Shown: positions 13,080-38,354 of the stretch, in pieces
Numbering within the stretch: the first letter of the stretch is position 1
How the letters are laid out: the number at the start of each line of letters is the position of its first letter
DNA from: a virus
Direction: 5' to 3' (one strand)
Length of the DNA stretch: 40,820 bases
Virus record (IMG/VR): IMGVR_UViG_3300009159_000127
Location: 1-40,820 of that record
Program-made: the position numbers and the translations under genes
Notes under the pieces: generated by a model
The model's database searches: none
What the model was told of the DNA's origin: nothing
Seen by the model: the letters and a program-made list of their open reading frames with translations, nothing else

Positions 13080-14174
13080 TTATGGACATGTTGTTCCAAA
13101 TGTATTATCTATTACTCCTACACCATTTATTTGTACATTGTAACTGTTAATAGAAGCATTTAATTGAATATGATAAAAGTCTCCATCACCTGGAAATTCT
13201 AATGTCATTGCAATATCTGTATACACAATTAATCCATTAACAATATCTAAATTACCAGTTATCCAACAAGGTGTTGCCATTGGTAATGGACAAGCATTTG
13301 ATGGAGAAGACATTGATGAAACAACTCCTTCTCTAGTTGATAGACAATTACCATCTCTAACTAATATTACAACTAAATCTGTCTCAAGAATTCCTGGATT
13401 AGTAAATGTATATGTTCCATCTGCACTAAATGATATTTCTTGTATTATTGCACCATTTATAATAAGTGTCATACAATGACCAGTAGGAGAAGTACCAGTA
13501 ACCTCTACATCAATATCATCATTACAGTTTCCAGTATCTCCAACACCAGATCCTCCAGCACTAATAGGTGCAGAAGTTGAAATACTACAAGGATTCATTA
13601 ATATATCAGCTATGTAAACACTTGAATATACATTGTTAATATATAAGTTATTAGGATTTAGAGTGGTAGTTGTAGTTGTTGTACTAGAACTACTTGTTGA
13701 TGTGCTTGTTGAAGTAGACGTGCTAGTTGATGTTGATGTACTACTAGAACTAGTGGTAGTGGTGGTAGGAGCAACAGTTGTTGATGTAGTTGTTGTAGTG
13801 CTACTACTTGAAGTGCTAGTAGATGTGCTTGTACTAGTGCTTGTTGAACTACTACTAGTTGTACTTGTAGTTGGAGCAGCTGTAGTACTAGTACTTGTAG
13901 TGGTAGATGTACTACTTGTAGATGTGCTACTAGTTGTTGTAGTGGTAGGAAGTACATTCACTGGTACATTAACAAAGTTTGTACACACTCCTACAGACTG
14001 TACTTTAATTGTAGTTGTTCCATCAGGAACAAATAGAGCTGTATATCCAGCAATTAAAGCTGCAGCAGATACATTTGTTGCAAATGGAGTAACATATCCA
14101 TCTGTATTTGAATAAAGGTTAAAAGGACCTGCATCTCCACCAGGTGGTAAAACCAATGTTATTAATATTGTCAT
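13080..14174 (-). CDS. Modular tail adhesin: GPFN module, long Ser/Thr linker, C-terminal YTD module (364 aa)
   Basis: Residues 1-~75 form the GPFN module (PPGGDAGPFNLYSNTDGY, ending SVGVCTNF). Residues ~76-175 are three runs of Ser/Thr linker separated by short AAPTTST/VAPTTTT spacers. The C-terminal ~185 residues hold a Cys-containing beta domain (CNDDIDVEVTG, ending NACP) and then a small module (CWITGNLDIVNGLIVYTD, ending TTCP) that resembles the C-termini of the 334- and 635-aa proteins. Last gene before the terminator at 13,011. Probably a fibre or surface adhesin: N-terminus as virion anchor, linker as flexible stalk, C-terminus as binding head. No enzyme motif. Confidence 0.75.
   Translation of the reverse strand: MTILITLVLPPGGDAGPFNLYSNTDGYVTPFATNVSAAALIAGYTALFVPDGTTTIKVQSVGVCTNFVNVPVNVLPTTTTTSSTSTSSTSTTTSTSTTAAPTTSTTSSSSTSTSTSTSTSTSSSSTTTTTSTTVAPTTTTTSSSSTSTSTSTSTSTSTSTSSSSTTTTTTTLNPNNLYINNVYSSVYIADILMNPCSISTSAPISAGGSGVGDTGNCNDDIDVEVTGTSPTGHCMTLIINGAIIQEISFSADGTYTFTNPGILETDLVVILVRDGNCLSTREGVVSSMSSPSNACPLPMATPCWITGNLDIVNGLIVYTDIAMTLEFPGDGDFYHIQLNASINSYNVQINGVGVIDNTFGTTCP
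13661..13960 (-). repeat. Longest Ser/Thr linker repeat of the window
   Basis: About 300 bases encode almost only Thr and Ser, in three blocks each starting PTTTTTSS or PTTSTTSSSS and running into STSTSTSTS. The complementary strand gives artefactual Val/Leu-rich open frames. Serine codon families AGY and TCN are mixed throughout. Confidence 0.9.
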
Positions 14175-14185
14175 TTGAATTTATA

Positions 14186-14404
14186 TTATGTTAATGTTAT
14201 ATCTATATTATTTGAACAATCTCCTGTAGATTGTACTCTTACAATAGTTGTAAAATTAGGAACTAAAGCAGAAGAATATCCTGCTAAAAGAGCTGCTCTA
14301 CTTACTCCTGTTTCAAATGCTGAAATATACCCATCTGTGTCTGAGTATAGATTAAAGGGACCTGAATCAATCCCAGCTACTGTTAATGTTATTAGTACTG
14401 TCAT
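14186..14404 (-). CDS. Stand-alone GPFN module protein (72 aa)
   Basis: The whole protein is one GPFN module: GIDSGPFNLYSDTDGYISAF, a central AALLAGYSSALVP, and STGDCSNNIDITLT at the end. It lacks the linker and C-terminal domains that follow the same module in both neighbours. It sits between the 364- and 320-aa adhesins with gaps of 11 and 10 bases. The reading frame is intact and the start spacing normal, so it may be a functional small docking or capping subunit. The alternative is the anchor remnant of an adhesin that lost its distal part. Confidence 0.65.
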   Translation of the reverse strand: MTVLITLTVAGIDSGPFNLYSDTDGYISAFETGVSRAALLAGYSSALVPNFTTIVRVQSTGDCSNNIDITLT

Positions 14405-14414
14405 ATTATTTGGT

Positions 14415-15377
14415 TTAGTTTTTAATTAATCTTACTGATAATCCTTGATTTGCTGAAGCCCATACTCTGTCAATCCTATCGTTAAAACTACTCAATAAGT
14501 AACTCCAACGATTTACAGAACTTGGAGCTATTGTTGTAGTTCCAAAATAAGCTTCAATGTAAAGACCTAGAAAATATCCTGCTGTTGCTGCTCCACCTCC
14601 TGGTAAAGCACTAAATCCTGCAGTGTTAGTTCCTCCAATTGTCCAATGACATTGACCTGCTTCTTTTAATTTACCTCCTATTAGTATTTGATAATCACTA
14701 CCTGGTCCATATAATGGTATCCAAGTTCCTCCACCTAACGTTGATGTTAATGTAGTCCATTCTGCATCAGTTGGAATATGATAGCCTGCAGGTGCTAGTC
14801 CTCCATTAGTAGTTGCTATAATAGCATAAACATTATATAGTTTACCATAAGTTGCTTCATTAGCTGGATCAAAATTATAATAACACCAAGCTGGACCAGT
14901 TGCTAAAGACCATGCAGTTGCATTAGTTATTTGAGGAATAGGTGTACCATCTCTAAAGGTACTTACATTCAAGTTACAACCTGTCCAAATTTGAGATCCT
15001 ATTGTAACATCATGAGCAATACAATTTGCACATATTGTAGTAGTACTTGTTGTTGTACTACTAGTACTAGATGTGCTAGTTGTAGTACTTGTAGATGTAC
15101 TGGTTGAAGTAGATGTACTTGTACTGGTTGAAGAGCTACTAGTTGTAGTGGTAGTAATTAAATTTATATTTAAATCAATAAAGTTTGTACACAATCCAGT
15201 AGATATCACTCTAATTATTGTAGCGTCATTAGGTACAGTTGAACTGTATCCAGCTTGCAATGCAGCAGCAGACACATTCGTTGCAAATGGAACTGTGTAC
15301 CCATCTGAATCTGAATAAAGATTGAAAGGTCCTACATCACCTCCAGGAGGAATAACTAATGTTGTTACTATTATCAT
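14415..15377 (-). CDS. Tail adhesin with GPFN anchor, Ser/Thr stalk and FISUMP domain (320 aa)
   Basis: Residues 1-~75 are the GPFN module (PPGGDVGPFNLYSDSDGY). Residues ~76-115 are the linker (TTTTTSSSSTSTSTSTSTST, then TTTICANC). From ~120 to the end is a FISUMP-type domain (Fibrobacter succinogenes major paralogous domain, C-type-lectin-like fold): VTIGSQIWTGCNLNVSTFRD, YGKLYNVYA, GLAPAGYHIPTDAEWTTL, GGKLKEAG, TGFSALPGG and the terminal LSVRLIKN. Such domains are used as binding heads on Bacteroidota cell surfaces and phage tails. The domain is complete at both ends. The most likely receptor-binding protein of the window, with the collar-domain protein as the other candidate. Confidence 0.85.
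   Translation of the reverse strand: MIIVTTLVIPPGGDVGPFNLYSDSDGYTVPFATNVSAAALQAGYSSTVPNDATIIRVISTGLCTNFIDLNINLITTTTTSSSSTSTSTSTSTSTSTSTTTSTSSTSSTTTSTTTICANCIAHDVTIGSQIWTGCNLNVSTFRDGTPIPQITNATAWSLATGPAWCYYNFDPANEATYGKLYNVYAIIATTNGGLAPAGYHIPTDAEWTTLTSTLGGGTWIPLYGPGSDYQILIGGKLKEAGQCHWTIGGTNTAGFSALPGGGAATAGYFLGLYIEAYFGTTTIAPSSVNRWSYLLSSFNDRIDRVWASANQGLSVRLIKN
15030..15160 (-). repeat. Ser/Thr linker repeat in the FISUMP adhesin
   Basis: Encodes TTTTTSSSSTSTSTSTSTST followed by TSSTSSTTTSTTT between the GPFN anchor and the FISUMP head. It has the same PolyT-S4-(ST)n design and mixed serine codons as the linkers of neighbouring genes. Confidence 0.9.
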
Positions 15378-15399
15378 ATTTTTTATTTATTATTTATTA

Positions 15400-16404
15400 T
15401 CAACATGCAGCACATACAACACCTAAAGGAGTAACAACACCTAAAGAAGTAACTGAATTTGTCGTACATACTGAACTACCTGTAATTTTTATTTTATACT
15501 CATTTACTCCATCTCCTGTAAAAGGAATAGTACCTAATGCATTTATATAAACAACACTTGATGAAGTTGCCTTTTCGACACCTGGTGTTGCATCAATATT
15601 TGTTACCCAACAATCAGTATCTAATGTTGCAGCACAACCATCAAAGGAATCAGGTGTTCCAGATATACGAGAAAGGAAATATGTACAACAATCTCCAGTA
15701 GTTGATTCTTCCCAAGTAGCACTATCATCACCACCAGTTAATGTAATAGAGTCTATTTGAGCACAAACATTACGAGAAAGTGGTCCTAATTCTCCATCTC
15801 CTACATAACTAAACACTGTATCACCTGCACAATTAATATATGAGAACTCTGTAAGACCTGTAACAGGTTCTGGAAAAGGTGGTTCAACATAAGTCACAGT
15901 GTAACATAGACATTCTAGACTAGTGGTAGTAGTTGTTGTTGTACTACTACTTGTTGATGTTGATGTACTGGTACTAGTGCTGGTACTAGTGCTAGTGCTA
16001 GTTGAAGAACTGCTAGTTGTAGTGGTAGTTGGATCTGGAAGTTGATTAACACTTCCTGTAAAATTACATATAGGTAATTCAGTAGCAGTTACAGTGAACC
16101 CACACACAGGTAATTCAGTGGCAGTTATTGTAAAATCACAAATAGGACAACATATAAAGATTTGATTATTTATATTCTCTATGTCTTCTGTAATGATCAT
16201 TATATCCTCAGTGATGTTCATTATATCCTCTGAAAGAATGTTTACACTATCTATAGCAGAACATATAACATTATCAAACTTAGCAAGAATTGTATTTAAA
16301 TCATCACAAGTATTTACACCTGTACAAGGAAGTGGAGTGCTATCATATGAGACAGCACTCGTTCCTATTATTGTTGTATTATTTATTTGAGGACAATCAG
16401 CCAT
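15400..16404 (-). CDS. Modular fibre protein: Cys/coiled-coil N-terminus, linker, Cys module, YTD-like end (334 aa)
   Basis: The N-terminus (LPCTGVNTCDDLNTILAKFD, ~residues 25-45) and the heptad-like Ile/Asn region after it (NITEDIMIITEDIENINNQI) match the N-terminus of the 790-aa protein upstream, suggesting a shared oligomerising anchor. Three copies of an FTxTATELPxC-type short repeat follow, then the Ser/Thr linker (~130-165). Next is a Cys module with FSYINCAGD, of the type repeated in the 790-aa protein. The C-terminus (CWVTNI, IPFTGDGVNEYKIKITG, ending VVCAAC) resembles the ends of the 364- and 635-aa proteins. Likely a fibre; ligand unknown. Confidence 0.72.
   Translation of the reverse strand: MADCPQINNTTIIGTSAVSYDSTPLPCTGVNTCDDLNTILAKFDNVICSAIDSVNILSEDIMNITEDIMIITEDIENINNQIFICCPICDFTITATELPVCGFTVTATELPICNFTGSVNQLPDPTTTTTSSSSTSTSTSTSTSTSTSTSTSSSTTTTTTTSLECLCYTVTYVEPPFPEPVTGLTEFSYINCAGDTVFSYVGDGELGPLSRNVCAQIDSITLTGGDDSATWEESTTGDCCTYFLSRISGTPDSFDGCAATLDTDCWVTNIDATPGVEKATSSSVVYINALGTIPFTGDGVNEYKIKITGSSVCTTNSVTSLGVVTPLGVVCAAC
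15918..16035 (-). repeat. Ser/Thr linker repeat in the 334-aa fibre
   Basis: Encodes PTTTTTSSSSTSTSTSTSTS, more ST pairs, then SSSTTTTTTT. It differs from neighbouring linkers in length and codon order but follows the same design. Confidence 0.9.
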
Positions 16405-16427
16405 TTTTTAAAATTAAAATATGTTTA

Positions 16428-18800
16428 TTATTCAACAAAAGTTGTGGTGGTTGTTGTCGTAGGAGCAACAGTAGTTGTAGTGGTGGTTGTAGGACAAGGA
16501 TCTTCACTTTCCACTGTACCATTTGTTACATCTAATGTTCCTTGTTGAAGACAATCTAATGTCTCTATATTTGGATAAAGTATTGATCCACTCACTTCAA
16601 TACCATCACAATCTAAAGCTGTCCAAGAAGTATCTCCAGGATTAGTAACTACTGTATATTGAACACAACCTCCTGTACAACATCCTGCAATAGTTGGTTG
16701 ATCAACTGTAATAACTACTGTAGTCCCAATCAAGTAAGATGCTAATGGTTCCTTTGGAAATAACACTGCACAAAAAGCATTTGTATATGTTCCAGCTGTA
16801 TCATAAGAATATATTTGAGGTTGGTCAGAACAATCAGTAAATCCAACATCAACAACACCTTTAGTTGAGGCAATTAGATCATCTTCATCTATAATTATAT
16901 CAAAACTTTTACAAGGACAAGTTGTTGTTGTTGTTGTTGTACTACTACTTGAACTAGTGGTAGTAGTTGTTGAACAATCTGCACCAACAGTTCCTATAAT
17001 ATGAGTTCCTGTAGTAGGTAATGGATTCCAATTAGGTGTTACACTAGGATATACACATATAATTCCTGAATTGTTTGTTACATCTATAATAGGTATTACA
17101 ACAGGTAAACCATCACAATCTGTATATTCTAAATTAGAACTATTTGGTCCTACTGCTTCCCATGTCCATTCTACACATGGAGCTATCGTTGTAGTTGTAG
17201 AGGTGGTAGATGTTGAACTTGAACTAGTTGTAGATGTTGAACTTGAACTAGTTGTTGTGGTAGTTGGTGAAATACAAGTTGATCCATATGTAATAATTCC
17301 TGTTCCACATGTAAATGCTGGTGTAACTCCTCCAACTAATGAACAAAATGTAGGAGAGTCTCCAGCACTAACATTAACTGTTTGAGATACCCCATTGCAA
17401 TCTGTATATTCAATTACACTGTATCCAGGAAAAGCAGGACAATCACCTGCTGCATTAATTGAAATTTCAACACATGATACAACAGCTGTAGTAGTTGTTG
17501 TTGTCGTAGGACAAGGCTCAGAATTAACTATTACCACTTCAGCTCCTAACAATAATGAACCATCTATTACACAACCTGTATTAAGAATATTAGGAAATAT
17601 AATTGTTCCTCCCACTGTTATGAAGGTGTTACATTCAACAGCTTCCCAAACAGTTTCTTTAGGATCAGTTCCTGTAGCTTCTAAGTTGTAAGATGTACAA
17701 GGTAAAGTTGTGGTGGTAGTGGTGGTTGATGATGGTGGTATAGTTGTAGTAGTTGTAGTAGTTGGAGCACATTCTCCACCACTTTCACAGGTAATAGCAC
17801 TTCCTAAAATTGTAACAGCACCAGTTCCACTAATAGCAATAGAACCAACTTGAGCACATATATAAATTGTCTCATCTTTAATCTTCAGTACTTGAGGATC
17901 TCCACCACCATCTGTCCAATATATGTACACTGTTCCTATAACTGTAACTTCATTACAGAAAGATTGTATAGGTGCTGGAGTTGTTGTTGTGGTGGTTGTA
18001 ATAACTGAGCAACATTCACCTGTATTTAATACATTAATTTTTCCAACTTCAATTGTTGGATAATTGTTATTTACACAAACTACATTAACATCAAGACTAC
18101 CAGTAACTGTTAAAACTTCAAATGTATCACATTCTACATAAGTAAGTGTTCCAGGAAACTGAAATATTGAAACATATTCATGATATGTACAAGGGCAAAT
18201 AGTTGTAGATGTGGTGGTGGTAGTTGGTGAAGTACAACAATCAAATGTATTAATAAAACTTACATTTCCTATTATAATAACAGCATATGTATTATCCACA
18301 CATAGACATTGAAGAATATCATCTGCTTGTGCTGTAACAGCTTGAGTTGATCCACAAGGAACATATATTACACTACCAGGATTTATTCTTGGTCCAACTA
18401 AGGTATATGTAGTACAAGAACAAGGAAGTGTGGTTGTTGTTGTAGTTGTAGCACCACAACATACAGCTAATGTATTGTTTATATTAACTATACTAGTATT
18501 AATATTTATAATTTGATTGGTGATGTTTGTAACTTGTATATTTAATATATTGATTTGATTAAGTAAGTTGCATATAATTTCATCAATCTTTTGCAATATC
18601 ACATTAAGTGTATCACATGGCTCAGCTATAATGCAATCCAATACAGGACCATTATAAAGCACATTACTAGATAGAATTACATTAGTTCCACATTGATCTT
18701 GTCCACAACCAGTATTAGGAAGTGTAGAAGTGCATCCACAAGGACTATTTAAAACTACGTCTGTGCAACAAGGATTAACTGGTAAAAAAGGATGTGACAT
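16428..18800 (-). CDS. Large multi-domain fibre: eight Cys modules joined by Thr linkers (790 aa)
   Basis: The Cys-rich N-terminus (CCTDVVLNSPCGC, EPCDTLNVILQKIDEIIC) and an Ile/Asn coiled-coil-like stretch form a probable oligomerising anchor (~1-115). Eight beta-type modules of ~60-90 residues follow, each bounded by Cys and usually carrying Y/W-x-D/E-C-x-G (YTDCNGV, YTDCDGL, WTALDCDGI). Thr7-type or Ser/Thr linkers separate most of them. Modules 4 and 8 are close copies (W-x-A-x-x-C, G-x-I-x-x-PNI, PCPTTTTTT). Module 3 matches the end of the stabilization protein. The protein ends in a bare linker (TTTTTTTFVE). Probably a long beaded adhesin on the tail; ligand unknown. Confidence 0.78.
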   Translation of the reverse strand: MSHPFLPVNPCCTDVVLNSPCGCTSTLPNTGCGQDQCGTNVILSSNVLYNGPVLDCIIAEPCDTLNVILQKIDEIICNLLNQINILNIQVTNITNQIININTSIVNINNTLAVCCGATTTTTTTLPCSCTTYTLVGPRINPGSVIYVPCGSTQAVTAQADDILQCLCVDNTYAVIIIGNVSFINTFDCCTSPTTTTTSTTICPCTYHEYVSIFQFPGTLTYVECDTFEVLTVTGSLDVNVVCVNNNYPTIEVGKINVLNTGECCSVITTTTTTTPAPIQSFCNEVTVIGTVYIYWTDGGGDPQVLKIKDETIYICAQVGSIAISGTGAVTILGSAITCESGGECAPTTTTTTTIPPSSTTTTTTTLPCTSYNLEATGTDPKETVWEAVECNTFITVGGTIIFPNILNTGCVIDGSLLLGAEVVIVNSEPCPTTTTTTTAVVSCVEISINAAGDCPAFPGYSVIEYTDCNGVSQTVNVSAGDSPTFCSLVGGVTPAFTCGTGIITYGSTCISPTTTTTSSSSTSTTSSSSTSTTSTTTTIAPCVEWTWEAVGPNSSNLEYTDCDGLPVVIPIIDVTNNSGIICVYPSVTPNWNPLPTTGTHIIGTVGADCSTTTTTSSSSSTTTTTTTCPCKSFDIIIDEDDLIASTKGVVDVGFTDCSDQPQIYSYDTAGTYTNAFCAVLFPKEPLASYLIGTTVVITVDQPTIAGCCTGGCVQYTVVTNPGDTSWTALDCDGIEVSGSILYPNIETLDCLQQGTLDVTNGTVESEDPCPTTTTTTTVAPTTTTTTTFVE

Positions 18801-18812
18801 TGTGTTGATTTA

Positions 18813-19931
18813 TTAAGGTATGTACATTATAAAGTAACAACCTATACTAGGTTGAATATTTGAGTGAGGTTGATTACCACCTGCATCAGCATTAGTAACA
18901 AAAACATTTTGTCCTGCTCCTGTTCCTTTTAATCCTGTAGGATTAGTAGATGTTGTTCTAGTAAATGGTACAGATTTTCTACCACCATTACCATCACCAG
19001 AAGAATTAGTCACACCTTCAAAAGTATGATCATGTCCTGGATCATTAATTATAACAGTTGTGGTGTGTGTATGAGAAGCAAGTTGATTAGCAGTAAGTTG
19101 AACTTGATTAGTACCTGTTGTAGTACCTATTGCATAATTAGGATTACCTGGTAAACTTGGATCAGTTTGAGGAGTTACATAAGAATTAGCTCCCATAGCA
19201 TTAGAACCTACTAACACTCTACCTCTTAAATCAGGTGTAAAATTTTGTCCATTACATAAATAAATTTTTGCCCAATCTCCTATACCAGCTCCTGTACTAT
19301 CAAATTTACCTGTTAAGAAAGCAGTAGTTGGATAGAAAGGTATTGGAGTGTAAGGAACCATTTTGGTATTGATTAAAGTTGTTCCTGGTATACCATTAAG
19401 ATATGCTTGAATATAATAATTGATCCCAGGCTGTCCAGGAGTGCTAACAATTGGAACATAATTAGTTTCAAGATCTAAAGCTAATGCTTGTAAATCAACT
19501 CCTAATTGGCAAACTTTATTTATTACAGCTTGTACAATAGCATGTGTATCTGAAGAAGCTGTAACACCTGTTAAACATCCAATTGTATAATTAGCATTTA
19601 ATATAGCAAGTTCAGCAACTATATCATCTACTTGTTCTTGAAGATCACAAGCAGCTTGTATAAGAGCTTTTGATATATCTACAATTGTTAAGTCTCCACA
19701 TGTAGGTAGATATTGTTGTACAAGGTTACATACCACTGTAGGTGCAAGATCTATTTTTATTCCTGTACCATCTAAAGTTGATACAAGAAATGTAATTAAT
19801 GCTTGTTCTACAAATGATAATGAATCACCTGTTTGGATTCCTAGGACAGGAACATCTATTCCTGTATATTTTACACATCTGTCAGAGACAATCTCTGTAC
19901 ATCCATTGTAACAATTTGAGCAAGTTGACAT
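18813..19931 (-). CDS. Tail fibre with phage tail-collar-type C-terminal domain (372 aa)
   Basis: The N-terminus has clustered Cys (STCSNCYNGCTEIVSDRC) followed by KYTGIDVPVLGIQTGDSL, a motif I know from anchors of Bacteroidota phage fibres. A middle helical/coiled region runs to ~residue 190. The C-terminal third is a tail-collar-like domain: PFYPTTAFLTGKF, IYLCNGQNFTPDLRGRVLVG, a His-rich SHTHTTTVIINDPGHDH and the end PHSNIQPSIGCYFIMYIP. In T4 gp12-like and microcystin-dependent (MdpB)-like proteins this fold trimerises and binds surface glycans; the H-x-H residues may bind metal. It is the only fibre gene here without a Thr linker. Confidence 0.85.
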   Translation of the reverse strand: MSTCSNCYNGCTEIVSDRCVKYTGIDVPVLGIQTGDSLSFVEQALITFLVSTLDGTGIKIDLAPTVVCNLVQQYLPTCGDLTIVDISKALIQAACDLQEQVDDIVAELAILNANYTIGCLTGVTASSDTHAIVQAVINKVCQLGVDLQALALDLETNYVPIVSTPGQPGINYYIQAYLNGIPGTTLINTKMVPYTPIPFYPTTAFLTGKFDSTGAGIGDWAKIYLCNGQNFTPDLRGRVLVGSNAMGANSYVTPQTDPSLPGNPNYAIGTTTGTNQVQLTANQLASHTHTTTVIINDPGHDHTFEGVTNSSGDGNGGRKSVPFTRTTSTNPTGLKGTGAGQNVFVTNADAGGNQPHSNIQPSIGCYFIMYIP

Positions 19932-19952
19932 ATTATTTTATTTTTAAAAAGT

Positions 19953-21860
19953 TTAACAAGAGCTGGTTGAGTTAATCTGTCCAGAATTAGGCACTCTAAT
20001 TACATTATTTGCTGATATATTTTTATAATATAAATTTCCTCCAACAAATATAGTTGTTAATCCTGCATCAGTGTATACAAAACTTCCAAAAGCAAACGTA
20101 GAACTAGTTGAGTATAACGTTATCACTGCAACAGTTTCAAGACAGGCTAAAGCATTATTTGCAGTTCCTATAGAAAATCCTGCTGAATAAATTACAGTGG
20201 TTGTTGTTGTTGTAGTTGGTGGTATTGTAGTTGTGCTAGTTGTAGTAGAAGTACTTGTACTGGTACTAGTCGATGTGCTAGTACTAGTAGATGTAGTAGT
20301 TGAGGTACTGCTAGAACTAGTGGTAGTAGTTGTAGGTATTAATAAAGTGGTAGTGGTTGTTGTTGTAAAATTACACAATTCCTCAAGATCTTCTTGTGTA
20401 AGTATTTGTACCAAACCATTAGTAACATATAAAGGTGCATCTGAAATATAATAACCATCTTCAGCAAAAGTATTTGTAACACTATTATATAACATTGAAG
20501 TTTCTTCATCATAATAATAAGTTGTAATATCAAATACAAGTGAGCCTAAATTAACATTACTAATTGCTAGATTATAGAAAAAAAGACAGGTATCTTCTAA
20601 AATATTAGATACAACAATATCTTCTACTGGTGATATTGTTTGATACTCAAGTAAAACTGGTATTGGAATAGCTCCTGGAGGAATAGATGTTGTTGTAGTA
20701 GTTGTTGTTGTAGAACAAGTTCCTAATGTACTTGAGTACATTAAACCTGTTATAGTTGCATCACCCCATTCAGAATAAGTACCAATAGGATAATAACTAG
20801 AATTAAGTAATGGTTGTAATAAAGGAGCAAGTTCTTCAGAAGCATAAATCCATTGACTACCATCATAATATAAACTACCAGGGTAACCTCCCCCAAGTTC
20901 ATAAACAGGTCTACCATTTTGAAAAGGAGCATTTCCTAATATTGGTAATTCTACTTGATATGCAATAGGGTTTTCATCACCTACAGATTCTTGAAAAATA
21001 GAAAAACATATAAATTCAGGACAATCACCTAATGAAGAATTATATACAAAAAACTGGTCATCAATAACTTCCCAAGTACCTATAGGATAATCTTGAGCAA
21101 CTGAAGAAATATATGAAAATACATTACCAATTGTTGCATTATATAATTCAGAGACAACCCATTGATTTACATAATCACCTGATATGGAGAACCATATGTA
21201 TACAGGTTCAACATCAGGTACATATGCAGTTGTACAATCTGTTAGAAGAGTTTTATAATATGGTTTTCCATTTATTAAACCTACTTCAGGCTCAATAGTA
21301 CAAAAATAATTATTCCCTGGAGCTTCTCCTCCCATAAAGAAACACATAGAAGCTATAGTGGTAGTAGTTGTTGTTGTGGTTGAACTAGTTGAAGTGGTTG
21401 TACTTGAACTTGAACTTGAACTAGTAGTTGTTGTAGTTGGTGGTATTGTGGTAGTTGTAGTACTGGTTGAACTAGAGGTAGTGGTAGTTGTAAGAGGTGC
21501 AAGTGTACTAGTACTAGTACTGGTAGGATTTGGTACAATAGTTATATCACAAGATTCCTCTATACAAGGTTCTGGAGTGTTACATCTACTTACACATCCC
21601 ACTGTAAGACGTATCACTCTACTAGCTATCATAGCTATAGAATATTCCTGTACATAACTTGGATTAATACGTTTGTACATTAATATTCTTCTATATCCTA
21701 TCAATTGAGTTATGTCATCTGCAGGAACAGGTTTGTTCAACATATATGAAATATTGTTGTACAAGTTGTTACCAAGTTCTGCTAACTTGCAATCTATTTT
21801 TTTAAGTAAAGATGAAATGTCCGGGCATTCAGGACAGTTGGTTAGTCTTGGTGATAACAT
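19953..21860 (-). CDS. Modular fibre with duplicated inner domain and three Ser/Thr linkers (635 aa)
   Basis: The frame stays open upstream to an ATG at 21911, but those 17 codons lie over the 31-aa gene at 21,871-21,966. The start at 21860 (MLSPRLTNCPECPD) is preferred. A Cys-rich N-terminal anchor (~1-115) precedes a double linker. Two related domains follow: one with NGKPYYKT, YPIGTWEV, YNSSLGDC, the other with NGRPVYEL, YPIGTYSE, YSSTLGTC. Next comes a Thr8 linker, an unrelated acidic domain, the longest (ST)n run, and a C-terminal module (GFSIGTANNALAC, FVYTDAGLTTIF, YYKN, ending NSTSSC). Probably a fibre or adhesin. Confidence 0.75.
   Translation of the reverse strand: MLSPRLTNCPECPDISSLLKKIDCKLAELGNNLYNNISYMLNKPVPADDITQLIGYRRILMYKRINPSYVQEYSIAMIASRVIRLTVGCVSRCNTPEPCIEESCDITIVPNPTSTSTSTLAPLTTTTTSSSTSTTTTTIPPTTTTTSSSSSSSTTTSTSSTTTTTTTTIASMCFFMGGEAPGNNYFCTIEPEVGLINGKPYYKTLLTDCTTAYVPDVEPVYIWFSISGDYVNQWVVSELYNATIGNVFSYISSVAQDYPIGTWEVIDDQFFVYNSSLGDCPEFICFSIFQESVGDENPIAYQVELPILGNAPFQNGRPVYELGGGYPGSLYYDGSQWIYASEELAPLLQPLLNSSYYPIGTYSEWGDATITGLMYSSTLGTCSTTTTTTTTSIPPGAIPIPVLLEYQTISPVEDIVVSNILEDTCLFFYNLAISNVNLGSLVFDITTYYYDEETSMLYNSVTNTFAEDGYYISDAPLYVTNGLVQILTQEDLEELCNFTTTTTTTLLIPTTTTTSSSSTSTTTSTSTSTSTSTSTSTSTTTSTTTIPPTTTTTTTVIYSAGFSIGTANNALACLETVAVITLYSTSSTFAFGSFVYTDAGLTTIFVGGNLYYKNISANNVIRVPNSGQINSTSSC
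20195..20355 (-). repeat. Ser/Thr linker repeat before the YTD module
   Basis: Encodes PTTTTTSSSSTSTTTSTSTS, a long ST run and TTTIPPTTTTTTT, joining the acidic domain to the C-terminal module of the 635-aa fibre. Mixed serine codons. Confidence 0.9.
21355..21535 (-). repeat. Ser/Thr linker repeat after the N-terminal anchor
   Basis: Encodes NPTSTSTSTLAPLTTTTTSS, an IPPTTTTTSSSSSSS block and a TTTTTTTT end. Both IPP spacers are followed by Thr5, the same punctuation as in the linker at 20,195-20,355. Confidence 0.9.
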
Positions 21861-21870
21861 AATATCAATT

Positions 21871-21966
21871 TTATTTATTTGCTTTTGCAGCACACGCTGC
21901 ACACATTCCATTTTTCAGCTGACATCCACAGCCTACATTAGCTCCACATCCTGAACATTGTGCCAT
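21871..21966 (-). CDS. Cys-rich miniprotein (31 aa)
   Basis: A 31-codon ORF starting at the ATG at 21966, three bases after the 187-aa gene (start codon 21964-21966, previous stop 21969). It encodes MAQCSGCGANVGCGCQL, then KNGMCAACAAKANK. Six cysteines in CxxC, CxC and CxxC spacing (Cys4, 7, 13, 15, 22, 25) fit a tiny zinc-binding fold. The same kind of protein sits next to structural genes in other Bacteroidota phages as far as I recall. Its 3' end covers the longer upstream frame of the 635-aa fibre, which decides that gene's start. Too short for most ORF callers. Confidence 0.6.
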   Translation of the reverse strand: MAQCSGCGANVGCGCQLKNGMCAACAAKANK

Positions 21967-35903: not shown

Positions 35904-36299
35904 ATGGCTTTAAATTTCAAAAATTACGAGAGAGCAGAAAGAACAGAATTAGGAACAGTTGCAGAACTGATTGGAAAAGGTGGTAAGATTAAGTTATCTC
36001 CAAGAAACTTTGCTGATGATAGCAAGCGTGTTGCTGTCATCCTTGAGCAAGCTAATGGTGCAAGTGATATGGTAATCTGCTCTGCTGAATTGAGCAAGAG
36101 ATTGCGTAGTAAAGAAATCACTTTGTCCAATCTAATTGGGTTCACTGTTACTGAACAGTTGAGTGTTAGTGGCGAACTGATTAATGTTATCACGTTACCA
36201 ACAGGTGGTGGTATGATTGAAGTTAGCATTGATGATGTGAAAGCAACAGCTTACGAGCCTGTTAGCACGTTCAATGCTGATGAGCTTGTTGCGTTCTAA
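35904..36299 (+). CDS. Conserved hypothetical protein, likely highly expressed (131 aa)
   Basis: First rightward gene, with an A-rich ribosome-binding region (AAAAACAGAAAAA) before the ATG and its own strong terminator. The product begins MALNFKNYERAERTELGTVA, has a glycine loop (ELIGKGGKIKLSPRNF), CSAELSKRLRSKEIT in the middle and a beta-type end (LPTGGGMIEVSIDDV). No cysteine pairs or membrane segments. Codon use is less AT-biased (AGC, GCG and CGT appear) than in its neighbours, which suggests strong expression. I think I have seen the family in Bacteroidota phages but cannot give a function; nucleic-acid binding is one guess. Confidence 0.7.
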   Translation: MALNFKNYERAERTELGTVAELIGKGGKIKLSPRNFADDSKRVAVILEQANGASDMVICSAELSKRLRSKEITLSNLIGFTVTEQLSVSGELINVITLPTGGGMIEVSIDDVKATAYEPVSTFNADELVAF

Positions 36300-36334: not shown

Positions 36335-36391
36335 ATATATAGGGTGGGTTTTATAAAATAGGGTGGGCTCTTTAAAATACAAAACATATCG

Positions 36392-36535: not shown

Positions 36536-36598
36536 AATAAATAGGTCAGTAATAGAAACAACAAACAACGTCAAACACAAATAAATATATATAGCATT

Positions 36599-36766
36599 AT
36601 GGTAGCAATAGACATAACAAAGAGCATTGAAGCATTAAAACAAAACTCATTATCTAATGAAGAGTTTTATACTAATGGAGACATTGATGAGAAGAGATAT
36701 ATATACATGAGAGATCAAATTGAGATGACATTAAGTTATTATCTCTTTTTATTTGAAGAAGAATAA
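36599..36766 (+). CDS. Hypothetical small acidic protein (55 aa)
   Basis: ATG at 36599, stop at 36764-36766, followed within five bases by a terminator. The product starts MVAIDITKSIEALKQNSLSN and ends TLSYYLFLFEEE; it is acidic and helical with no motif I know. The tight link to a terminator and the lack of stop codons over 55 codons in an AT-rich region support it as real. Confidence 0.55.
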   Translation: MVAIDITKSIEALKQNSLSNEEFYTNGDIDEKRYIYMRDQIEMTLSYYLFLFEEE

Positions 36767-36770
36767 TAAT

Positions 36771-36791
36771 GGGCTCTTCTTGGGCCCTTTT
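36771..36791 (+). terminator. Intrinsic terminator after the 55-aa gene
   Basis: GGGCTC / GGGCCC (6 bp including one G-U pair, loop TTCTT), followed by TTTT, directly after the 55-aa ORF. Confidence 0.8.
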
Positions 36792-36800
36792 AAATAACAT

Positions 36801-37071
36801 CCACTCAATAGCAGAAGCTAATAGTTTGATGTGTGAAGACCACACATTAGTAGCAAGACTATTAATACTTACTTGTGAGTAACTCCAGACTGAAATAACA
36901 TAAGTTGAGAGTGGATTTAATAATATAATGTGTGAGTGTATACATTTGCTCGTGTATACAGTGATAGAGAGTAGGAAATCAAATAAAGCTTCTCACACAT
37001 TTATAATACAATCAACTACCAAATATTTGGTATATACATAGAAGAGCATTAGAAGTATGCTATAGTTGATT
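36801..37071 (+). ncRNA. Nested multi-stem region, candidate structured RNA B (~270 nt)
   Basis: The 436-base gap 36,767-37,202 has no convincing gene. Part 1: CCACTC (36801-36806) pairs with GAGTGG (36909-36914) around TAGC/GCTA, ATGTGTG/CACACAT (36829-36847), ATTAGTAG/CTATTAAT (36846-36866, one G-U) and TTACT/AGTAA. Part 2: AATGTGTGAG/CTCACACATT (36927-36936 with 36992-37001) around TGTATAC/GTATACA (36937-36943 with 36954-36960). Part 3: AATCAACTA/TAGTTGATT (37010-37018 with 37063-37071) around CCAAATATTTGG and AGCAT/ATGCT, a three-way junction. TACATTTG (36941-36948) also matches a -7 promoter element, so a promoter could overlap part 2. Confidence 0.5.
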
Positions 37072-37161
37072 AACAAAAAACTCAATAACTTTCTAAGATG
37101 TTGAAGACACCAGTTTCTATACAATACATGTTGATATATGTTCGACCATATGTTAAGTATA

Positions 37162-37177
37162 GTTTTAGGTGTAAAAC
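37162..37177 (+). promoter_or_regulatory. Leader hairpin before the 103-aa gene
   Basis: GTTTTA / TAAAAC with loop GGTG, ending 25 bases before the ATG at 37203. It resembles in placement the hairpins before 35904 and 40531. Confidence 0.4.
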
Positions 37178-37202
37178 ACAAATCCTTTAATAACAAATAG
37201 AA

Positions 37203-37995: not shown

Positions 37996-38241
37996 ATGAT
38001 ACAAATTAAATATCATGTAGGCTCAATGTATTGGCCTGCAATTAAGAAAATGGTTGATCAATTAAATACACAATCTATCACCTGCTCTATTGAAGAAGTA
38101 GGTGATAGTAAATATTTAATGATTGGTATTCCAGAATCATTTGATCTTGGACAAACAGCATTATATATAGGAACTATTATTGGTATGATTGAACAACAAT
38201 CATTAACAACACAATTTTATTTAAAAGATGTAGTTATATGA
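37996..38241 (+). CDS. Hypothetical protein (81 aa)
   Basis: The frame is open back to 37969, but the ATG at 37996 lies just after the previous stop and after AAATAACAACGTT, so it is preferred. The product starts MIQIKYHVGSMYWPAIKKMV and alternates beta and helical parts (SITCSIEEVGDSKYLMIGIP; ALYIGTIIGMIEQQ). It looks like a small alpha/beta domain; no family recognised. Confidence 0.6.
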   Translation: MIQIKYHVGSMYWPAIKKMVDQLNTQSITCSIEEVGDSKYLMIGIPESFDLGQTALYIGTIIGMIEQQSLTTQFYLKDVVI

Positions 38242-38354
38242 TAACACTATGTATTTTTCCTAATTTCAAGGGAACTAAAAGAGAACATTGCCATGCATTA
38301 TTAATATGTGTGGCTCTTGATATGTTATATATTGTACCATTATTAATAAACTAA
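38238..38354 (+). CDS. Hydrophobic mini-ORF (38 aa)
   Basis: Its ATG overlaps the TGA of the preceding gene (ATGA). The product starts MITLCIFPNFKGTKREHCHA, then a hydrophobic end (LLICVALDMLYIVPLLIN) that could be one membrane segment. It fills the gap up to the next ORF, which begins five bases after its stop. Overlapping start and gap filling support it; length alone does not. Confidence 0.4.
   Translation: MITLCIFPNFKGTKREHCHALLICVALDMLYIVPLLIN

Follow-up and report, generated by a model that had tools for sequence, protein, structure and literature searches.

Structured phage RNAs are a known kind of molecule. GOLLD and ROOL are large, ornate examples, some of them built of one conserved and one variable part, and species 1 and 2 of phage T4 are stable RNAs of phage tRNA clusters. 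In Y RNAs, the binding stem is conserved and the domains attached to it vary, and RNA triple helices of the ENE type consist of a U-rich internal loop and an A-rich tract. Few viruses of the human gut are more abundant than the crAss-like phages. In the literature that we searched, the only non-coding RNAs described for these phages were tRNAs, introns, and scattered Rfam hits, and the main text of a survey of structured RNAs in the human microbiome does not mention crAss (PMC8040213).

The DNA analysed here, hereafter the window, is a piece of a crAss-like phage, 40,820 nucleotides (40.8 kb) long. It is placed there by the match of its major capsid protein to Crass_capsid (PF23898, 3e-29); its terminase and portal have PHROGs matches. 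The structural genes run leftward, and the genes from position 35904 on run rightward. Positions 36801–37071, in which a sequence-only reading had seen one candidate structured RNA with three closed domains, lie some 1.2 kb inside the rightward block, preceded there by a gene of 131 aa and an ORF of 55 aa. Immediately 5′ of this stretch, a terminator-like hairpin (GGGCUC-uucuu-GGGCCC followed by UUUU, 36771–36787, plus strand) forms the left border of the array described below, which sits beside the early genes of the phage.

The surroundings hold several further features. Candidate phage promoter motifs occur at 36335–36375 and 36585–36600 of the window and in contigs L005, L006, and L007; TATATATAGGGTGGG, followed about 20 bases later by another GGGTGGG copy, is conserved upstream of the array, AATATATATAGCATTA is conserved ahead of the 55-aa ORF, and each is a possible motif of this kind. 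The GGGCTC/GAGCCC terminator-like hairpin of L005 (5890–5980) carries a loop insert of about 80 bases, as if it also accepted modules. Elsewhere in the window, the coding positions 38001–38271 have unusually strong predicted RNA structure (z −3.6, 200 shuffles) that includes an 11–12 bp hairpin, and positions 13080–21911 encode a series of putative tail or adhesin proteins whose linkers are long Thr/Ser repeats (TTTTTSSSSTSTST).

All three long-range closing stems of the sequence-only reading are present on the plus strand, the second and third with the lengths it gave and the first with 8 rather than 6 bp. The closing helix of unit D1 (36799–36916), AUCCACUC/GAGUGGAU (36799–36806/36909–36916, 8 bp), encloses several hairpins. 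That of unit D2 (36927–37002), AAUGUGUGAG/CUCACACAUU (36927–36936/36992–37001, 10 bp), encloses an inner hairpin UGUAUAC/GUAUACA, and that of unit D3 (37010–37071), AAUCAACUA/UAGUUGAUU (37010–37018/37063–37071, 9 bp), closes two hairpins and thereby forms the three-way junction that had been described. The 270-base stretch is indeed devoid of a convincing gene. It was also correctly held to be no tRNA, tmRNA, or group I intron: ARAGORN reported 0 genes and Rfam 15 (including RAGATH, hatchet, pistol, and twister) gave 0 matches in the window at the gathering cut-off, with only sub-threshold chance hits up to E 10.

The same reading considered stems of 9–10 bp at this spacing unlikely by chance. 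The stems proved real, but the statistics of folding energy and of the arms were only suggestive. On the plus strand, 36801–37071 folded better than most shuffled controls (z = −2.76, 3 of 200 shuffles as good), but was only modestly unusual; the minus strand gave z = −3.39, with 1 of 200 shuffles as good. About 7% of windows along the contig reach z ≤ −2.7, while at least one perfect arm of 9 bp or more arose at this spacing in 267 of 2000 shuffles and at least two arose in 27 (1.4%), so that folding energy by itself is merely suggestive. Taken by unit, the z-scores are −3.6 for D1, −2.3 for D2, −2.9 for D3, and −2.4 for the adjoining chassis RNA introduced below; the entire array (36796–37182) has z −3.5 and a minimum-energy fold with one domain per unit. 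It is the recurrence of the units in other phages that places the structure beyond chance.

D2 was found at 96–100% identity over 76–77 nt in five contigs (L005, identical to L084, and L081, L082, L083, and L085), where it sits between differing, unrelated flanks. D3 (62–72 nt) occurs at 71–91% identity in five contigs (L065, L137, L138, L139, and L140) with an invariant closing stem, variable hairpin loops, and, again, unrelated flanks. The similarity stops at the closing stem in both cases, and elsewhere the units stand alone or in other orders; in L082, D2 lies immediately 5′ of a chassis. Since D2 and D3 occur apart in other phages, one three-domain RNA is ruled out: the plus-strand, gene-free structured RNA of the sequence-only reading stands, but as three separate modules. 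These alignments show that D2 and D3 travel between phages as complete modules, each bounded by its closing stem. The array's first slot accordingly holds different units, because the same hairpin that precedes D1 in the window lies directly 5′ of D2 in L081 and of D3 in L137 and L139. No covariation was seen among the D2 and D3 relatives, as these hardly vary; compensatory changes are thus missing from the two units, but are abundant in the adjoining 37075–37180.

D1 alone might be chance structure that fills the gap between real units, as neither blastn nor exact 20-mer matching found a relative of it. We consider this unlikely, given that none of 200 shuffles folded as well (z −3.6) and that D1 follows the terminator-like hairpin and precedes D2, its closing stem resembling those of the other units. 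At D1's position, L005 (5973–6090) has another stem-closed unit (AATAGTCTTGC...GCAAGACTATT), of which GCAAGACTATT is also found within D1.

The interval of the sequence-only reading ends 3 bases before the most conserved element of the locus, which we call the chassis. A blastn search with the flanks gave the first lead, in the form of 50–60 bp of noncoding DNA just 3′ of the stretch that is about 85% conserved in several Crassvirales genera. Fetched loci, degenerate-pattern scans of viral contigs, and one genome collection yielded 86 distinct members with the consensus AAAAAACUYAAUAACUUYCCAAGNYRUUGAGGRCACCAGUUUCUUNNN - variable arm - NNNAAGUUUUAGGUGUAAAAYRCA. The RNA folds through two short helices and a pseudoknot behind an A-rich 5′ strand, and carries a single variable arm in type I and two in type II; the arms are 13–215 nt long. 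We found no published description of this RNA in the open-access literature searched.

The chassis of the window is of type I, with its conserved core at 37075–37180 on the plus strand. The covariance-model hit, which spans 37067–37186, scores 105.8 bits (E 5e-19) against a model that includes the window sequence itself among its building sequences. The nearly invariant A-rich 5′ strand AAAAAACUCAAUAACUU (37075–37091) is followed by a pseudoknot of UCU (37092–37094) with AGA (37105–37107), which is YCC/GGR in relatives, by helix P1 (UGUU, 37099–37102, with AACA, 37175–37178), and by helix P2 (CACC, 37108–37111, with GGUG, 37168–37171). An internal loop, AGUUU (37112–37116)/UUUUA (37163–37167), separates P2 from the exchangeable variable arm P3 (CUAUAC...GUAUAG, 37117–37162). 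The window thus has every part that defines the chassis (P1 YRUU/AAYR, P2 CRCC/GGYG, pseudoknot YCC/GGR, P3 arm, and A-rich 5′ strand), with all pairs formed. Type II, found in cr272_1 and in contigs of about 15–183 kb, has an extra variable arm inside the 5′ strand (AAUAUAAAAUAUCC...GGAUUUCC) and CGCC in place of CACC. In five larger carrier contigs, the covariance model scored a single strong hit apiece, apart from one contig with two, and L120 has a tandem variant. A third subtype was considered and rejected, the L120 tandem being the only convincing copy and the remaining pattern hits being due to chance.

RNAalifold, unprompted, predicts P1 (YRUU/AAYR), P2 (CACC/GGUG), and P3; the pseudoknot YCC/GGR was taken from the alignment. 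In 35 type I sequences, 96.6% of cells are paired and 87 cells carry double changes, compared to 30.5 in shuffles, with every slid version far worse. Among 85 members of both types, counted as sequences and not as independent events, P1 is paired in 84, P2 in 85, and the pseudoknot in 84–85. The first pseudoknot pair is C-G in 35 and U-A in 50 (85/85 paired), P1 occurs as UG/CA, CA/UG, CG/CG, UA/UA, and UC/GA, and the second pair of P2 is A-U in 64, G-C in 12, G-U in 9, and never mismatched. The P3 closing stem covaries family-wide, its first 7 pairs being formed in 505 of 553 instances against 355 expected and a maximum of 393 in 1000 shuffles. The one exception is L043, in which P1 and one pseudoknot pair are disrupted and the 3′ end appears degenerate; the window itself shows a rare compensatory change of the third pseudoknot pair from C-G to U-A (UCU/AGA), shared with one other member. 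Because distant phages use several pair types, shared descent alone is an unlikely cause, and the RNA structure and modularity are well supported by the comparative data. An additional helix, UYAAU/RUUGA, that would pair the 5′ strand with the loop was rejected: it is 97.7% pairable, but shows no double change, is equalled by shuffles, and competes with P1.

The arms are exchanged between phages, as the following comparisons of sequence show. The window and L065 have an identical P3 arm (46 of 46 bases) and unrelated upstream flanks, and cr113_1 combines the upstream flank of cr109_1 with the arm of cr114_1 and cr115_1. One 52-base module (87% identity) serves as P3 of the type I chassis of L070, as P3 of the type II chassis of L121, and as P4 of the type II chassis of L116. 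Furthermore, the L034 arm matches sequence outside any chassis in L041 (75% over 79 nt), and the second arm of L122 does so in L113 (85% over 55 nt). A further recurrent module, AGTTGTAATA ... TATTACAACTGAGTGCAGAGGG, in which a conserved 3′ tail follows the closing stem and which is at times present in two copies, was observed in L025, L028-L030, L032, L035, L038, L045, L048, L057, L058, L060, L064, L068, L071, and L080; it matched no Rfam family in the loci scanned.

Chassis members reside nearly all in phage contigs, which are Crassvirales wherever the capsid test is positive. Named carriers belong to Loutivirinae, Boorivirinae, Uncouvirinae, Bearivirinae, and Oafivirinae of the Suoliviridae and to Mahlunavirus of the Steigviridae; Crass_capsid scores above the cut-off in 16 of 23 further chassis contigs, the other 7 being left unplaced by this test. 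Two matches come from bacterial genome assemblies and may be mis-binned phage contigs. Searches of crAss001, crAss002, phi14:2, and cr271_1 found no chassis and cr125_1 has a 3′ remnant only, so within this set of genomes, which leaves out p-crAssphage, the sequences indicate that the chassis is accessory, can be lost, and is not essential to the group.

Known RNA families surround the chassis in related loci. Rfam identifies hatchet, RAGATH-7, RAGATH-14, a RAGATH-1 hammerhead, tRNAs, tmRNAs, and a permuted tmRNA nearby; RAGATH-7 (RF03159), RAGATH-14 (RF03145), and hatchet (RF02678) lie in the same arrays on the same strand, often a few hundred bases 3′ of the chassis. By covariance model these are different families from the chassis, D2, and D3, and no Rfam family matched the chassis in six type I relatives (E ≤ 1) or in six short relatives representing both types (E ≤ 5). 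RNA arrays of the crAss-like forward block therefore include known families, with the chassis, D2, and D3 not among them. The tmRNAs lie at L018:5709-6083, L005:9357-9737, and L036:6604-6846, one of them permuted, and L055 (1524–1739) has a group I intron about 1.3 kb 3′ of its chassis.

The nearest ORF has the same strand as the chassis upstream in 60 of 69 members and downstream in 65 of 68 (125/137 together), within a gene-free gap of 1.4 kb at the median. Because of this gene-sense orientation and the G-U pairs tolerated on the sense strand, the chassis most likely acts as an RNA. It could be a cis-acting leader (riboswitch, antitermination, or attenuation) for downstream genes, given that it is sense-oriented, lies close to the beginning of the rightward operon, and is followed in the window by an ORF that begins 23 bases past its end. 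We regard this as improbable, since (i) the next ORF of 100 aa or more lies anywhere between about 10 and 2500 bases away, with no constant position, (ii) the next element 3′ is often a tRNA, a ribozyme, or another RNA, (iii) arms are swapped while the flanks stay unchanged, (iv) a PHROG family search with the two ORFs on either side of the window's array returned no match, and (v) an unsystematic comparison found no common downstream gene.

A new class of self-cleaving ribozyme that processes the array, with the pseudoknotted core as a putative active site, appears more doubtful. In its favour, such ribozymes typically combine a compact pseudoknotted core with peripheral arms that vary, and hatchet and hammerhead occur in the same arrays. 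The more than 45 near-invariant positions of the chassis, both ends included, however, exceed what known small ribozymes need; the chassis resembles no Rfam ribozyme, and it is usually single-copy, whereas hatchet occurs twice in L014. We see very little room for a DNA element (recombination site, replication origin, or packaging site) with hairpins acting as DNA: the units do shuffle as if between recombination points, and the element is mostly single-copy and near the strand-switch region, but the strand bias, the tolerance of G-U on one strand, the variable arm lengths, and the absence from related phages all speak against it. The idea that the chassis is a Y RNA partnering a phage Ro60 (TROVE) protein, which crAss001 expresses early (PMC10136315), is scarcely credible and was rejected by a co-occurrence test, as the architecture is alike in outline only, TROVE (PF05731) exceeds the cut-off in crAss001 alone, a phage that lacks the chassis, and no chassis-bearing record passes it; G016 gave one weak sub-threshold match.

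Combining these findings, we propose that 36796–37182 is probably an array of four independently folding non-coding RNA units that is transcribed and trimmed to stable RNAs acting in trans. D1, D2, D3, and the chassis lie in the rightward operon, beginning about 1.2 kb past the switch in gene direction, and would be transcribed as part of it. The transcript would then be cut into small stable RNAs by ribozymes of related arrays or by host RNases; Rfam found no ribozyme in the window's own array. The conserved core may shield the RNA or bind one conserved partner, while the exchangeable arms and the free-standing modules would meet targets that vary across hosts, with host regulators, RNases, and RNA-sensing defences as candidates. 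The core sequences that flank P3 could serve as homology for phage–phage recombination, which would explain arm swapping. That the product is stable and acts in trans is inferred from these sequence patterns. More tentatively, Crassvirales may possess a combinatorial RNA system, in which a chassis with one or two sockets takes up exchangeable modules, modules of the same kind also stand free, and reshuffling between phages would keep pace with changing hosts or defences.

The locus thus adds a conserved, uncatalogued RNA, backed by covariation and found in dozens of crAss-like phages within arrays of exchangeable modules, and this RNA may reveal RNA-based control of hosts or defences by these phages. 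Several known systems invite comparison. An RNA-protecting triple helix of the ENE type would suit the A6 tract 5′ of the core and the AGUUU/UUUUA loop between P2 and P3, although the A tract lies 5′ instead of forming a 3′ tail. Both parts are near-invariant and give no covariation, and a triple helix is unlikely to be essential because L061 keeps the core without the A tract. T4 species 1 and 2 are likewise non-tRNA structured RNAs beside tRNAs in a phage array; we know of no swappable-arm architecture in RNAs of this type. Like GOLLD and ROOL, the chassis is a structured non-coding phage RNA, but its core has only about 65 conserved nucleotides, and Rfam matches neither family in the window or its relatives, as the sequence-only reading had anticipated in seeing no specific resemblance. 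The design of a chassis with exchangeable arms appears new and, if the plug-in reading is true, would be an RNA counterpart of swappable protein cassettes.
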